In this document: piece after piece, positions 1 to 5,056 of the stretch
Layout: each line of letters begins with the position of its first letter
How positions within the stretch are numbered: the first letter of the stretch is position 1
NCBI GenBank assembly: GCA_017447445.1
Contig: JAFSNK010000008.1
Coordinates: 62,001-126,000 of the forward strand
Reading direction: 5' to 3'
Origin: Clostridia bacterium
Lineage (GTDB): Bacteria > Bacillota > Clostridia > Oscillospirales > CAG-382
Length of the DNA stretch: 64,000 nucleotides
Notes under the pieces: model-generated
What the model was told of the DNA's origin: nothing
Seen by the model: only the letters and a program-made list of their open reading frames with translations
The model's database searches: none
Made by a program: the position numbers and the translations under genes

Positions 1-1374
1 CCACGAACTGTCGGCAGTCCTTACGAACATATTTCCGAAATGGTAAATCGTAAGGGTATCTCCGCCTTCATATTCCAAAGAAATAACCCAGGTCATTCCA
101 TAATATTCATCAGGCTTTTCTGAATACTTTAAGCTCAAATTCAATTCTGATAGATAATTGACAACAGATTGCACATCGTCTCCACTGAATGAATAATCAT
201 AACCTTCAGGTTGCGACGTTACGGAAATCCTTTTCACCGTTCCTTCTTTCAGGAGAAGCTCTTTTCCCGACAAAACAGTAAAGTTTCTTGTATTCGGGCG
301 ACCCCTCAATCGGAGCCCCGCTTCATACAACATTACAACGGTTTCTTCTCCGTCTTTTTCCAAGACGATATCGAAGAAATGCTGTTCTTGATCGGATCTG
401 GCGCCTTCTACAACTATTCTTCCGTCTTTATTCGTAAAACCGAGGTTATAGTAATCCGTGGTGAAAATAGTGTCGTATATTCCATCCTTGGTTACAACCG
501 TTACATTGAAAGTAAACAATCCGCTTGTGGGGCCGTGCGACAGCAGAAGCACGTCGTTCGACTGATCTCCGTCAACGTCGCAGACTGCAACAGACTCCAT
601 AGAAGTATCCAAAACCGTATCGTCCTTTACAAAGCAAACCGAGCAGCTATACCGTTCGTTATCCTCAAACATGAGACCTTCCCGTCCGGAAGCTCTATAA
701 CTGTCATATGAATAAATGGGAATTGCAAACATTTGCCCGCCGGTCAACTCATAGAATCCTTCGGGAGTAACGTTTATCGGATGTATTTTGATTTTTGAAA
801 GGCTGTCTTTGCCGTCATACCACGTTAACGAGGAAGCTTCGCCGTCATCCTTCGCATACGGGCTTCTGGAATACCATGACAAAGTGAGAAGTTCTTTGTC
901 CTTACTATAATTCATAAAAATCATACAATCGTCGCGGAAAAGAAAACGACTGTATTTCATCGTTACAAGTTCAAAGCCCGAATTTTCAAGGTTTGAGACA
1001 AAGCTTTCATAGTCGGTCTCGGAAAAATGATTGTATGAATAATAGCGTCTATACCCTTGCTTAATATCCGGTGTTCCTTCGGGGAAAGAAAAAGGCGCTT
1101 CTCCAATTGAATCAAACTGGTTGCAATACCACGATTCGCTGCTTGGAATTACCGGCGGCTCCTGTATGTGAGGCTGAACATCCGATGTTTCATCATTTGA
1201 CGTTTTATCTGACGTTTCATTTGATGTTTCATTTGATGTTTCATTTGATGCTTCATCGTTATTATCCATTTTAGGCTTCTGGCAAGAAGTCAGTACCGAC
1301 AACGCAAGCACTGTGAAAAGCACTAAAAACAGGGCGACAAGCCGTTTGGCTATATGAGATCTGTTAAAATTCAT
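1..1374 (-). CDS. Putative lipoprotein of unknown function (3' end beyond window)
   Basis: The reading frame is open from an ATG at 1374 down to base 1, giving 458 residues without a stop, so the C-terminus lies outside the window. A GGAGG sits just upstream of the ATG. The N-terminus is a lipoprotein signal: Arg/Lys at residues 5-11, a hydrophobic stretch at about 12-27, and lipobox LTSC with Cys31. A short spacer of Ser-Asn-Glu-Thr repeats follows (about residues 39-60), then a soluble extracellular region rich in Tyr, Asp and Ser. A segment near residue 255 reads CDVDGDQSNDVLLLS, which resembles an FG-GAP/calcium-loop motif. No family could be named. The gene is visibly more AT-rich than the block beyond 2300, as is the orphan at 10074, which suggests later acquisition. 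The lipoprotein call is firm; the function is unknown. Confidence 0.8.
   Translation of the reverse strand, partial: MNFNRSHIAKRLVALFLVLFTVLALSVLTSCQKPKMDNNDEASNETSNETSNETSDKTSNDETSDVQPHIQEPPVIPSSESWYCNQFDSIGEAPFSFPEGTPDIKQGYRRYYSYNHFSETDYESFVSNLENSGFELVTMKYSRFLFRDDCMIFMNYSKDKELLTLSWYSRSPYAKDDGEASSLTWYDGKDSLSKIKIHPINVTPEGFYELTGGQMFAIPIYSYDSYRASGREGLMFEDNERYSCSVCFVKDDTVLDTSMESVAVCDVDGDQSNDVLLLSHGPTSGLFTFNVTVVTKDGIYDTIFTTDYYNLGFTNKDGRIVVEGARSDQEQHFFDIVLEKDGEETVVMLYEAGLRLRGRPNTRNFTVLSGKELLLKEGTVKRISVTSQPEGYDYSFSGDDVQSVVNYLSELNLSLKYSEKPDEYYGMTWVISLEYEGGDTLTIYHFGNMFVRTADSSW
1211..1256. repeat. 12-bp tandem repeat coding the Ser-Asn-Glu-Thr spacer
   Basis: Close to four tandem copies of a 12-bp unit (GATGTTTCATTT with single-base changes) lie inside the lipoprotein gene and encode its repeated SNET linker after the lipidated Cys. 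The unit is a multiple of three, so copy-number slippage would alter linker length without a frameshift. Confidence 0.8.
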
Positions 1375-1409
1375 TGAATTACCTCCGGAATCCTTTGTAG
1401 TTATAAATA

Positions 1410-1437
1410 ATTATACCATACCTTTGTGACAAGTCAA
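1410..1437 (-). promoter_or_regulatory. Sigma-A type promoter of the lipoprotein gene
   Basis: On the minus strand TTGACT (1437-1432), a 16-bp spacer and TATAAT (1415-1410) precede the lipoprotein start at 1374 by about 35 bp. Confidence 0.7.
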
Positions 1438-1470
1438 GTTTTTCTAAGCAAAGTCGCCCTCCGTTCCCCA

Positions 1471-1658
1471 TTAGCCCCGAAGGGGCACTTCATTGAAAAA
1501 ACCACGAGCATAATTCGCTTCGTGGATAATTGCGCCGATGCTTGTCGCCGAGCGTTCAAGCTGATTGACGAGTGAATAATGACCTTTTATTTTCTCGCAT
1601 GGTTTAACGGCATTTACGGAAAACCGACCGATAAATCGCGGAGCTTGGATTTGGACAT
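1471..1658 (-). pseudogene. Remnant of a four-helix-bundle (23S rRNA intervening-sequence/S23-like) protein gene
   Basis: From an ATG at 1658 the frame reads MSKSKLRDLS, the usual opening of this small family, then runs into a stop. The continuation (SVNAVKPCEKIKGHYSLVNQ, then LERSATSIGAIIHEANYARG) is in another frame, so a short indel broke the gene near 1630. After NYARG the match ends where 'ADFISK...' would be expected and about half of the ~115-residue protein is missing, replaced by a mini-hairpin (1474-1486). Members form pentameric four-helix bundles and are best known as ORFs inside 23S rRNA intervening sequences; relatives include the Avd accessory proteins of diversity-generating retroelements. 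Here the copy is intergenic, damaged at both ends and embedded in the hairpin array. Family assignment comes from remembered consensus. Confidence 0.75.
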
Positions 1659-1858
1659 GGCGAAGAACCTTACTTTTTAGTGAAATATTTTGCCTGACGG
1701 CAAAATGTGAAATATTCCCTGACGGGAATGTGAAATTTTGCGGCGTTGCCGCAAAGTGAGATGAAATTCGCCCCATAACATTTGCGAAGCAAATATTTCA
1801 CAGCGAAGCTATTTCACATGGCGAAGCCATATTTCACTCGCCGAAGGCGAATTTCACT

Positions 1859-1888
1859 GAAAAATCCACGCCGAAGCGTGGATTTTTC
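1859..1888 (-). terminator. Terminator of the tRNA operon
   Basis: The outermost hairpin of the array has a 12-bp stem (AAAAATCCACGC paired with GCGTGGATTTTT), a UUCG loop on the minus strand and a run of five T. It begins just past the encoded CCA of tRNA-Cys and can serve as a rho-independent terminator. Confidence 0.7.
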
Positions 1889-1963
1889 TGGAGGCGCCAC
1901 CCGGAATCGAACCGGGGAATGAAGGTTTTGCAGACCTCTGCCTTACCGCTTGGCTATGGCGCC
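1889..1963 (-). tRNA. tRNA-Cys (anticodon GCA)
   Basis: A cloverleaf folds on the minus strand: acceptor GGCGCCA pairs with TGGCGCC, the anticodon loop CTGCAAA gives GCA, and the T-arm carries GGTTCGATTCC. The 3' CCA is encoded (1891-1889) after discriminator T, the expected U73 for tRNA-Cys. It is the last of three clustered tRNAs. Confidence 0.95.
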
Positions 1964-1982
1964 TTATCGTCGCCTAAACGGA

Positions 1983-2058
1983 TGGAGCGGATTACGGGGT
2001 TCGAACCCGCTACCTCCACCTTGGCAAGGTGGCGCTCTACCAAATGAGCTAAATCCGC
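1983..2058 (-). tRNA. tRNA-Gly (anticodon GCC)
   Basis: Acceptor GCGGATT pairs with AATCCGC; the anticodon stem CCACC/GGTGG encloses TTGCCAA, giving GCC. The T-loop is GGGTTCGAACCCC and CCA is encoded at 1985-1983. It lies 19 bp upstream of tRNA-Cys. Confidence 0.96.
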
Positions 2059-2090
2059 GCAGGGCGTAACTGTGCGCGCTGTTGAAAAAA

Positions 2091-2167
2091 TGGCGATTCA
2101 GATGGGACTCGAACCCACGACCTCCGCCGTGACAGGGCGGCGTTCTAACCAACTGAACTACCGAACC
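2091..2167 (-). tRNA. tRNA-Asp (anticodon GTC)
   Basis: Acceptor GGTTCGG pairs with CTGAATC including G-U pairs. Anticodon stem CCGCC/GGCGG encloses CTGTCAC, giving GTC. Discriminator G73 is as expected for Asp and CCA is encoded (2093-2091). It is the first gene of the tRNA cluster. Confidence 0.96.
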
Positions 2168-2187
2168 GTGCGGCTGCGCGCTTGGAT

Positions 2188-2216
2188 ATGATATCATATT
2201 CAAGACGATTTTGCAA
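2188..2216 (-). promoter_or_regulatory. Promoter of the Asp-Gly-Cys tRNA operon
   Basis: TTGCAA (2216-2211), a 17-bp spacer and TATCAT (2193-2188) lie about 21 bp upstream of the mature tRNA-Asp 5' end on the minus strand. Confidence 0.65.
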
Positions 2217-2316
2217 TACCTTTTGCGAAAAAACAAAAATATTTTTTCGGTTTGCTCCCGCGCGCCGCATAACGGACGCGAAAAAGCGCAACATACAAAA
2301 CGGGAGGCGATGCGTT

Positions 2317-2784
2317 TTGACGAATATCGTTATTCGTTCGGTGCTGGTTTATCTGCTGCTGCTGGCGGCGATGCGGTTTATGGGAAAACGGCAGATAGGC
2401 GAGATGCAGATGACCGAATTCATAACAATGATAATGCTTTCGGAGCTGGCGATACTGCCGGTTACGGACACGGACATACCGCTGCTGCAGGGGATAGTCC
2501 CTTTGGCGGTGATATCCTCCGCGGAGGTGGTGTTTTCGTTTTTCGAGAGCCGCAGCGTGAGGTTCCTGCGGTTTATGAGCGGGAATCCGATAATCCTGCT
2601 GGATTCCGGCGGCTATATTGAAAAGAATCTGCGGATGACGCGCATCTCCCGCGAGGACGTGGAGGCGCAGATACGCACCAGCGGATACGCGGGGCCGGAC
2701 GAGGTGGAAAAGGTGATTTTGGAGCGCACCGGGAAGATGAGCGTGCTTCCGAAGCGGGAAAGCGGCGAGGTGAACGATGCGTAA
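2317..2784 (+). CDS. DUF421 (YetF/YrbG-like) membrane protein
   Basis: A 155-residue protein. The TTG at 2317 is chosen because GGGAGG lies 9 bp upstream; the longer open frame has no ribosome site. Three hydrophobic helices (about residues 4-20, 30-48, 53-72) are followed by a soluble part with the DUF421 signature: FMSGNPIILLDSGGYIEKNL, then ISREDVEAQIRTSGY and a closing 'VEKVILERTGKMSVLPK'. It is shorter than B. subtilis YetF (over 200 residues) and lacks the second half of the C-terminal domain, as many clostridial members seem to. The role is not established; members are found in spore or forespore membranes of some Firmicutes. It overlaps the DUF4363 gene by 8 bp, the usual pairing. Confidence 0.85.
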   Translation: MTNIVIRSVLVYLLLLAAMRFMGKRQIGEMQMTEFITMIMLSELAILPVTDTDIPLLQGIVPLAVISSAEVVFSFFESRSVRFLRFMSGNPIILLDSGGYIEKNLRMTRISREDVEAQIRTSGYAGPDEVEKVILERTGKMSVLPKRESGEVNDA

Positions 2785-3133
2785 TTTTATCGCGGCGGTG
2801 GTAATAATACTCGTCGTCGCGGGGGCGGTGGTTTTGAACGCCGCGCATATAAAAAGCGCGTGCGGGGAGCTGGATTCGCTGCTTGCGGCGGGCGAATACC
2901 GAAAAGCGCTGGAAAAATGGGAGCGCGAGCGCCCGTATATGGCGTTTTTCATACGAGACGGCGAGATAGACGCGGCGGACCTTCATCTGCGGGAGCTGGA
3001 GCTTGCGCGGAGCAGGAACGACCGGGACGGCGAGCAGGAGCACCTTGCCGGGGCGCGCGACGCGCTTATTGAAATGATAAACTACGAATCCGTTTCGCTC
3101 GGAAGCATTTTTTGTGTCCCGTTTAGGCGCTGA
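2777..3133 (+). CDS. DUF4363 membrane-anchored protein
   Basis: A 118-residue protein with an uncleaved N-terminal anchor (about residues 4-21, IAAVVIILVVAGAVVLNA) and an amphipathic helical extracytoplasmic part of the DUF4363 type ('ELDSLLAAGEYRKALEKWE'). DUF4363 genes usually follow DUF421 genes in Clostridia, and here the start lies inside the end of the DUF421 frame, indicating translational coupling. No biochemical function is known; a structural partnership with the DUF421 protein is inferred from the constant linkage. The next promoter begins only 5 bp past the stop codon. Confidence 0.8.
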   Translation: MRNFIAAVVIILVVAGAVVLNAAHIKSACGELDSLLAAGEYRKALEKWERERPYMAFFIRDGEIDAADLHLRELELARSRNDRDGEQEHLAGARDALIEMINYESVSLGSIFCVPFRR

Positions 3134-3137
3134 CGTG

Positions 3138-3166
3138 TTGACATTCGCGCGGTAATGGAGTAAAAT
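3138..3166 (+). promoter_or_regulatory. Consensus sigma-A promoter of the rpe operon
   Basis: TTGACA (3138-3143), exactly 17 bp, then TAAAAT (3161-3166). It begins 5 bp after the DUF4363 stop and leaves a leader of about 135 nt before rpe. TTCGAC and GTCGAA half-sites flank an AT-rich stretch just before the rpe ribosome site. Confidence 0.75.
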
Positions 3167-3309
3167 ACTTTTAACAATATATATAATACGGCGGCAAAGC
3201 ATCGCATAAACAAAAATAAGGTCCTTTGTTTTGCACTTCCGGCGGTGCCGCGCGCCGTTCGACTTATTATCATAATATGTTTTTTTACGTCGAAAGGGGA
3301 CATTAAAAA

Positions 3310-3990
3310 ATGAGAAGGATAAAACTTTCGCCCTCCGCGCTTTCCTGCGATTTCGCCGCCGCGGGCGGGCAGATACGGCAAGCCGAGGAAGGCGGCGCGG
3401 AATACCTGCATCTGGACGTTATGGACGGCGTGTTCGTGCCCAACATATCGTTCGGTCAGCCGGTGGTGAAATCTTTGCGGAAATGCACCGATCTTGTTTT
3501 TGACGTTCATCTTATGATAACCGAGCCGATCAGGTACATAGAGGATTTCGCGAAAGCGGGAGCGGACATTATAACCGTGCATTACGAGGCGTGCTCCGAC
3601 GTGGAGGCGACCTTGCTTAAAATCCGCGCCTGCGGAAAAAAATGCGGGATCTCGGTAAAACCCGGCACTCCGGCGGAGGTGCTCGTTCCCTATCTGCCGA
3701 TATGCGATCTCGTGCTGGTGATGACTGTCGAACCCGGGTTCGGCGGTCAGAAATTCATGGCGGATATGCTGCCGAAGGTACGGTTCCTGCGGGACTACGC
3801 GGAAACGCACGGGCTGAACTGCGAAATAAGCGTGGACGGCGGCGTTTCGGCGTCCAACGCGGCGCTTTGCACGCTTGCCGGGGCGAACGTGCTTGTCGCC
3901 GGGTCGAGCGTGCTTGGAAAAGCGGACGTAAAGAAAGCCGCGGAAGAGCTTCTGGCCGCCGCGGAAATGAGAGGAGCCCGCAATGAATAA
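3310..3990 (+). CDS. rpe: Ribulose-phosphate 3-epimerase
   Basis: A 226-residue TIM-barrel enzyme interconverting D-ribulose 5-phosphate and D-xylulose 5-phosphate in the pentose phosphate pathway. Diagnostic stretches in order are 'LSPSALSCDF', the metal-binding LHLDVMDGVFVPNISFGQPV, VFDVHLMITEP with the second metal His, GISVKPGTPAE, 'MTVEPGFGGQKF' and the phosphate-binding 'ISVDGGVSASNA...VAGSSVLG'. Metal ligands (His and Asp in LHLDVMDG, His in DVHLM, Asp in VDGG) are all present, and length is typical. AAAGGGG precedes the ATG. It overlaps the next gene by 8 bp, so carboxypeptidase translation is probably coupled. Confidence 0.96.
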   Translation: MRRIKLSPSALSCDFAAAGGQIRQAEEGGAEYLHLDVMDGVFVPNISFGQPVVKSLRKCTDLVFDVHLMITEPIRYIEDFAKAGADIITVHYEACSDVEATLLKIRACGKKCGISVKPGTPAEVLVPYLPICDLVLVMTVEPGFGGQKFMADMLPKVRFLRDYAETHGLNCEISVDGGVSASNAALCTLAGANVLVAGSSVLGKADVKKAAEELLAAAEMRGARNE

Positions 3991-5056
3991 CGGCAGGAAC
4001 GGCGGAGCGAACGGGGCGCGCGCCGGAGGCGGAACGCCCGCCCGGAACCTCGGAGGCGGGACGCCCGCCCGCGGAAGAAGAAAAAAGAAAAAGACCAACG
4101 GGTATTTATACGCCGCGGTGCTGTTCGGTTTTGCGGCGCTGGTAATAGCCGCCGCGCTTATATACTACGCTGTCGCTCCCGGCGGACGCGGCGGCGCGGA
4201 TACCTCCTCGCAGGGCGCGCCGGGCGAAACTTCGCCGCGGGAGCAGACTTCCCTGCCCAGCCACGCTTCGGAAACCGAAAGCGCGGCGCAAATATCGCAG
4301 CCGGAGCAAAGCGAAACGTATGAAAGCGGCGAAGACACGTCGCTTCCGGACGAATCGGGTGACCGCATCGATCAGCCGCAAAAAACAAAGGAATACGAAG
4401 ACAAGATAGGCGTGCGGTACAGCATAGATATGACCGAATACGAAAAGTACGTCTGCCCGGACGACGAGGAAAAATACGTCTTCCTCGTCGGCCCGAAGCA
4501 TCCGCTTTCCGCCGATTTCGTGCCGGACGACCTTATAAAATGCACACATATGCGCGAGAACCGGCCGGAGGGCTATTCCTATATCGTCCGTACGGTGGAT
4601 ATCGCGCTCGACGCCTTTATTAAAGAAGCGGAAGCATACGGCCATTTCGGGATCGGCGTTACGAACGGATACCGTTCCTACGCCACGCAGACCTGGCTTT
4701 TCAACAGCTACGTGGACAAGGAATGGAACTCCGGCAAGTACGCGACGAAAGACGAAGCGATAGCGGAGGTGCTTACTTATTCCACGCGTCCCGGCACGAG
4801 CGAGCACCAGTCCGGGCTGTGCTGCGATATGAACAACGTGGACCTTTCCGACGTTTCGAAGTTCAACAACTCGCCTACCGCCAAGTGGATGGAGGAGAAC
4901 GCCTACCGCTTCGGCTTTATACTGCGCTATCCCGAGGGGAAGCAGGATATAACCGGGATAATTTACGAATCGTGGCATTTCCGGTTCGTCGGAAGGACCG
5001 CGGCGACGGAGATACACGCTCTGGGTATAACTCTGGACGAATATCTCGCGGACTGA
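3983..5056 (+). CDS. Membrane-anchored D,D-carboxypeptidase, VanY/LdcB (M15B) family
   Basis: A 357-residue peptidase acting on the peptidoglycan stem peptide outside the membrane. A basic Gly/Arg-rich cytoplasmic tail (residues 1-36) precedes one transmembrane helix (about 38-56), a Ser/Glu/Pro-rich linker (about 60-145) and the M15B catalytic domain. Zinc ligands and catalytic residues are visible: H275 and D282 in SEHQSGLCCDM, E329 and H332 in ESWHFR. 'TNGYRSYATQ' is the usual VanY/LdcB substrate-side motif. Whether it removes terminal D-Ala from pentapeptides or trims tetrapeptides cannot be decided from sequence. No van regulatory genes are near, so a housekeeping cell-wall role is likelier than glycopeptide resistance. 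Confidence 0.9.
   Translation: MNNGRNGGANGARAGGGTPARNLGGGTPARGRRKKKKTNGYLYAAVLFGFAALVIAAALIYYAVAPGGRGGADTSSQGAPGETSPREQTSLPSHASETESAAQISQPEQSETYESGEDTSLPDESGDRIDQPQKTKEYEDKIGVRYSIDMTEYEKYVCPDDEEKYVFLVGPKHPLSADFVPDDLIKCTHMRENRPEGYSYIVRTVDIALDAFIKEAEAYGHFGIGVTNGYRSYATQTWLFNSYVDKEWNSGKYATKDEAIAEVLTYSTRPGTSEHQSGLCCDMNNVDLSDVSKFNNSPTAKWMEENAYRFGFILRYPEGKQDITGIIYESWHFRFVGRTAATEIHALGITLDEYLAD

Follow-up and report, generated by a model that had tools for sequence, protein, structure and literature searches.

The 64,000-nucleotide stretch of DNA analyzed here, from a Clostridia bacterium of the gut or rumen (contig JAFSNK010000008.1, positions 62,001 to 126,000; hereafter the window) carries, directly behind a tRNA-Cys gene, an array of short hairpins separated by a constant word, and the two halves of this array are inverted copies of Gut-1 (Rfam RF01706). 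One half matches the Gut-1 covariance model at 1790-1859 on the minus strand with a cmscan score of 70 bits, above the curated gathering cut-off of 50; the other matches on the plus strand with 45.7 bits, below it. The first-pass annotation of this DNA had taken the array for something without a name, and on this point it is corrected. Gut-1 was described in 2010 as a candidate non-coding RNA, seen in human-gut sequence only and not cis-regulatory (PMC2864571). What is new is that Gut-1 is one arm of a two-armed array adjoining IVP (PF05635) genes, usually just behind a tRNA; in the open-access literature we found no paper connecting Gut-1 with IVP proteins. We lean toward the view that the window holds a decayed copy of a family of such two-armed hairpin arrays, located at the 3′ flank of tRNA genes and some other genes and each paired with an IVP gene, an arrangement resembling that of REPINs and RAYTs but with an unrelated, non-catalytic partner.

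Read on the minus strand, the parts follow one another as tRNA-Cys (1889-1963, ARAGORN), at whose 3′ end the element starts; hp0, a terminator-like hairpin with a 13-bp stem and a T run directly after the tRNA (1859-1888); four hairpins spaced by GTGAAAT; a center; three hairpins spaced by ATTTCAC; a fragment of an IVP gene; and the start of a second element. The two halves were delimited by Gut-1 matches, words, and hairpins. In the tRNA-proximal half (1775-1858, minus strand) the word reads ATTTCAC on the plus strand, starting at 1795, 1811, 1831, and 1851, which is GTGAAAT on the IVP strand; its hairpins, with GAA loops, lie at 1780-1794, about 1801-1810 (a short stem), 1818-1830, and 1838-1850. 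The IVP-proximal half (1678-1767, plus strand) has GTGAAAT starting at 1680, 1707, and 1730, a variant, GATGAAAT, with TGAAAT at 1762, and hairpins at 1687-1706 and 1714-1729 (loops TGAC) and at 1737-1755 (loop GTT). Arm A, which comprises the word and the first stem arm of hairpin 1 (1846-1856), forms an 11-nt perfect inverted repeat with 1762-1772 at the element center; this second complement, A′, is an alternative partner to hairpin 1. The eight hairpins at 1687-1888, joined by four copies of ATTTCAC and by three of GTGAAAT plus the variant, with a flip of polarity, confirm what the first-pass annotation had noticed, and it was right too that one array end occupies the position of the tRNA terminator. 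Folded as a single strand, the window array reaches a z score of -11.1 as DNA and -9.2 as RNA; 0/200 dinucleotide shuffles were as stable, and both halves score for Gut-1, on opposite strands, so the array is not due to chance. The same anatomy characterizes the family: hp0 is followed by four word-hairpin units, the center carries the complement of arm A a second time, some three word-hairpin units come next in inverted orientation, and the IVP gene closes the series.

Uniqueness to this locus had been named beforehand as an argument against an element of this kind; arrays occur elsewhere in the home genome and in many relatives. The home genome (G000) has 13-19 Gut-1 matches, weak to strong, at about 10 places; many of these are preceded by a terminator-like hairpin or a tRNA, and different elements use different words. 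Its two intact IVP genes, both over the Pfam cut-off, each lie directly downstream of an array, and many of its arrays have no adjoining IVP; among the relatives there are up to 45-48 Gut-1 hits per genome, compared with 3 IVPs. Arrays and IVP genes nevertheless go together. Of 60 relatives, 45 have IVP, 45 have Gut-1, and 40 have both (Fisher p = 7e-5; copy numbers correlate with rho 0.73), and the association holds with one genome per genus and the home genus excluded (p 1.6e-4). Across the class, surveyed in 148 genomes spread over it with the home genome left out of the counts, IVP is present in 22/26 genomes with Gut-1 as opposed to 30/121 without (p = 2e-8), shared ancestry being only partly corrected in these genome-level tests and the Gut-1 model missing arrays with other words. 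At the level of single genes, homologs of one IVP, taken from named genomes that are mostly ruminant-gut Clostridia, have a hairpin array upstream in 67/75 cases, compared with 1/69 downstream and 11/79 at about 1 kb upstream. A strict word-and-hairpin detector places arrays upstream of 44/84 IVPs and downstream of 12/82, and, at the same score, reports them in 1/140 window control tiles and 0/273 shuffles. The first-pass annotation had suspected a tie to four-helix-bundle genes, and these counts bear it out.

IVP genes are also found in elements of other build. A second type consists of a tRNA, hp0, plain tandem words, a copy of the hp0 stem, inverted words, and IVP; at loci L124, L125, L131, L139, L140, L143, L146, and L147, all behind tRNAs, the place of the hairpins is taken by plain tandem words (TTCTCTC.../GAGAGAA...), and the hp0 stem recurs a third time in the center. 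A third type has inverted plain words on both sides of IVP; at loci L032, L034, L044, and L104 the words AATTCAT.../ATGAATT... flank the gene, forming a large inverted repeat whose loop contains it, as in 23S rRNA intervening sequences. In the home genome, locus L030 (about 1360-1440, G000:C12) holds five plain tandem copies of ATATCACATT and no hairpins, and is possibly a word array that lost its hairpins or never had them. Locus L309 (MT835815.1, 3112-6468), from human feces and labeled Bacteriophage sp., has a tRNA, hp0, a GTGATAT-word array, and an IVP gene; the label is unverified and the sequence possibly bacterial.

The word is constant within one element and differs between elements (GTGAAAT, GTGATAT, GCTAAAT, ATGAAG, and others), and it corresponds to the clade of the adjoining IVP. 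Placed on the IVP tree, the word class of 61 IVPs changes 10 times, where the minimum is 7 and shuffling gives 39.5 (0/200). Compared across genomes, an IVP and its nearest counterpart share their word in 36/43 cases, while paralogs within one genome have different words in 21/22 pairs. The IVP remnant of the window, which was not used to derive this rule, obeys it, in that the nine IVPs it matches best all have the TGAAAT word (72-85% identity over 39 residues). Stems are freely replaced over the same distances at which the word stays, and since the word is retained while stems turn over, the pattern speaks for selection on the word. It matches the branch of the adjoining IVP as a binding site would, which suggests that the protein recognizes it.

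Related arrays, many of them more than 90% identical, stand behind different tRNA genes of the same and of related genomes. An identical 32-nt hp0 occurs exactly twice in genome G013, at two tRNAs and each time before an array; this one pair argues in favor of hp0 being part of the element rather than a native terminator. At one tRNA-His site several congeners have a terminator only and others have elements with at least three different words, so this site has probably been filled more than once. Among the compared sites, an exact junction with target duplication was not obtained, because the terminators differ between species. Spread by a reverse transcriptase, an enzyme that the first-pass annotation had proposed to look for, was rejected: the near-complete home genome (99.9%) has no PF00078, and across 60 genomes reverse transcriptase shows no association with arrays. 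A Y1/HUH transposase acting in trans was rejected as well, PF01797 being absent from the home genome and from 15/24 array-rich genomes and showing no association with arrays. Eleven further array-rich genomes, not all of them complete, likewise yielded neither enzyme. The window array gave no match that would indicate carriage by a plasmid, and a sigma-70 promoter between array and IVP, convincing by eye, scored no better than shuffles in a scan.

Other repeats were noticed behind tRNA genes. At L190 (about 1780-1850), L039, L195, L002, and L136, an inverted copy of the T arm (such as GGGAATCGAAGG) is continued by GGTAGTGAATGAC..GTCCGGGGGAC.., after which the tRNA 3′ end occurs a second time; an array element often comes next. 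Behind tRNA-Gly in two congeners (L221, L222) there are long tandem repeats of another hairpin unit (GCGTCTTTCGCTTATGCCGGAACATCCGGCTTCGCC).

Compensatory stem changes, which the first-pass annotation had asked about, are many. Among 33 related copies, 33/41 pairs have changed on both sides (202 cells vs 56 when shuffled), and the covariation score is 0.437, compared with 0.133 for shuffled and at most 0.111 for slid partners. In these copies the helix between arm A and the distant A′ is conserved, with 98.8% of cells paired; because it too is paired and covarying, arm A has two complements, one within its own hairpin and one in the center. Read from the center outward, most loops have the form C(GNA)G or C(GNNA)G, which characterizes DNA mini-hairpins of exceptional stability (PMC4686876), and with either strand allowed this rule fits 159/269 array hairpins as opposed to 6/171 window control hairpins. 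The two halves share one loop rule only when read on opposite strands. If the array acted as RNA, one would expect a purine at the third place of GNNA loops and G.U pairs in the stems. The GNNA loops of the IVP-side half take any third base, show no purine preference, and are not GNRA; G.T makes up 20 of about 2645 stem pairs, near the A.C count of 12. The missing purine preference and the rarity of G.U point indirectly to DNA hairpins, and the array probably folds as DNA rather than RNA. As candidate loop rules the GNRA and UNCG tetraloops of RNA gave a partial fit only, UNCG being possible in only 52/132 C(TNC)G loops, and no RNA wobble signature was found in the stems. We therefore regard as unlikely, on the strength of these loops and stems, a structured RNA such as Gut-1 was published to be, that is, a non-coding RNA or a terminator or processing array read from the tRNA promoter, with the A/a′/A′ triple as a conformational switch. 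The covariance model matches, the original description (PMC2864571), the RNA fold, the two covarying partners of arm A, and the stability that CUNCGG loops would lend some of the hairpins as RNA all fit it; the near equality of G.T and A.C pairs, the free third base of the IVP-side loops, the limited reach of UNCG, and a loop rule that is single only across opposite strands do not. Selection on RNA structure, the other part of what the first-pass annotation had offered, is thereby disfavored.

Less likely still, in our estimation, is that template switching in quasi-palindromes produced the arrays as passive palindromes between genes, with IVP as a hitchhiker and the link a matter of common descent. 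Such an origin would account for the near-perfect Watson-Crick stems and for wholesale stem swaps between near-identical copies, and a hairpin in an element-free tRNA spacer likewise differs between genomes G010 and G011 (in this tRNA-Asp to tRNA-Gly spacer, L161 and L156, respectively, the flanks are identical and the stems are CAGTCCC..GGGACTG vs CAGTTCTC..GAGAACTG). It leaves unexplained why both inverted halves use one word, why the loops follow a rule, why many families keep their parts in one order, and why the word is kept despite stem replacement. We consider it improbable that IVP acts simply as a DNA-binding repressor or a toxin-antitoxin-like protein, with the word array as operator and with spread left to ordinary recombination at tRNA genes. 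The word-clade match and, in the hairpin-array type, the position of the array upstream of its own gene would suit a repressor; but an operator requires neither hairpins nor a mirror-image half, and the many arrays without an adjoining IVP, with Gut-1 hits far outnumbering IVPs in a genome, are not what it would lead one to expect.

Several points weigh against the IVP-paired mobile element that we favor. Neither a movement event nor binding of DNA by an IVP was observed; no enzyme acting in trans was identified, and we know of no nuclease or recombinase activity in an IVP. The match between word and IVP could be explained by joint inheritance of a linked unit rather than by recognition. Under the strict detector about half of the sampled IVPs have an array, and by eye some of the others have one after all; many sub-threshold IVPs carry plain tandem words, not hairpins, and a few have nothing recognizable. 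Among the 45 array-bearing relatives, 5 have no detected IVP, some genomes being incomplete. The RNA folding of the window array is also very stable (z -9.2), and Gut-1 was published as an RNA (PMC2864571).

We suppose that in single-stranded or supercoiled DNA the arms would fold as DNA mini-hairpins, each half on its center-outward strand. The IVP linked to an array would bind it, reading the word between the hairpins, and its binding might let host enzymes copy or move the element. Copies without IVP would result, and these would depend on an IVP located elsewhere, much as REPINs depend on RAYTs. IVP has relatives in PDB (2rld, 2gsc), of which 2gsc, from Xanthomonas, is pentameric (PMC4990558). 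A more far-reaching proposal, which we put forward tentatively as a possibility, is that these elements represent a new category of mobile element. Its protein, a pentameric four-helix bundle without catalytic activity, would recognize a clade-specific word presented between DNA mini-hairpins of extra stability, and would guide replication or repair enzymes of the host in copying the element to the 3′ ends of tRNAs. The intervening sequences of 23S rRNA would be a special case of this strategy.

The comparison with known systems is instructive. Gut-1 as described is a stand-alone non-coding RNA of human-gut metagenomes, whereas here it forms one arm of a two-armed array that is associated with IVP genes and with the 3′ ends of tRNAs in Clostridia, ruminant-gut genomes among them, and arrays here also use words other than GUGAAAU. 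The 23S rRNA intervening sequences with an S23/IVP open reading frame (PF05635; PMC4990558) share the protein family, a gene tied to inverted repeats, and a long-suspected mobility; unlike them, the elements described here have a tRNA-gene flank and hairpin arrays with clade-specific words, and the window copy is not in a 23S rRNA gene: its neighbor is tRNA-Cys, and window 1-4000 gave no match to rRNA. Closest in design are the REP/REPIN-RAYT systems (TnpA-REP; PMC3116915, PMC8266576), which likewise have interspersed, paired inverted hairpins that are strand-specific, a conserved tag word, a partner gene, and gene-less copies. They differ in that their partner is a Y1 HUH transposase rather than a four-helix bundle, in having one hairpin and not 3-4 per arm, and in their tag: the GTAG/CGTC that precedes the REPIN palindrome does not occur here, where the words are 6-8 nt long and vary with the partner clade. 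By analogy, then, the element appears to work like a REPtron without being one, because the pattern is the same and no component is held in common. Repeats accompanied by a matching partner gene are, as a general pattern, known; the pairing of Gut-1 arrays with IVP is new. An IS200/IS605 end, with subterminal hairpins and a TnpA Y1, does not apply, as no Y1 transposase was found in the home genome. Avd of the diversity-generating retroelements (PMC10053308) is a structural relative of IVP, but those elements have a reverse transcriptase. IVP genes near CRISPR-cas loci (PMC3936711, PMC10910872) also stand beside repeat arrays; unlike CRISPR, the arrays here have no constant repeat with variable spacers, their constant part being the word (7 nt in the window) and the intervals palindromes.

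The window copy itself is decayed and dead. Its IVP gene remnant (about 1501-1626, minus strand), recognized with a hidden Markov model (HMM) built from intact relatives (E 8e-12), scores 21.2 bits against Pfam PF05635 (E 3.5e-4), below the cut-off of 33.8. It is broken, as the first-pass annotation had judged, retaining HMM positions 19-63 of 126; that annotation had placed it in the middle of the array, yet it is found next to the array, at the end that faces away from the tRNA. The array had also been drawn as beginning at 1441; the stretch 1441-1505 falls outside the main array and appears to be what is left of a second element, with the word ATGAAG, which at 1446-1505 (minus strand) replaces the 3′ part of the IVP gene (80% identity to locus L307 over 51 nt, E 1e-4; layout as in locus L047). 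With IVP so reduced and its 3′ part replaced, this copy is unable to act by itself. The adjoining lipoprotein gene contains a 12-base in-frame tandem repeat (GTTTCATTTGAT) at window 1202-1249.

Elements of this kind, made of mirror-image rows of hairpins, an IVP gene, and a clade-matched word, are widespread and have not been described as such. Gut-1, an orphan motif without a function since 2010, gains a context and probably a DNA rather than an RNA nature. The IVP/S23 proteins, whose role has been open since 1993, gain a candidate nucleic-acid target with a readable code between protein and word. If it is true that IVP drives the spread of these arrays, they would constitute a mobility system without a recognized recombinase of its own.
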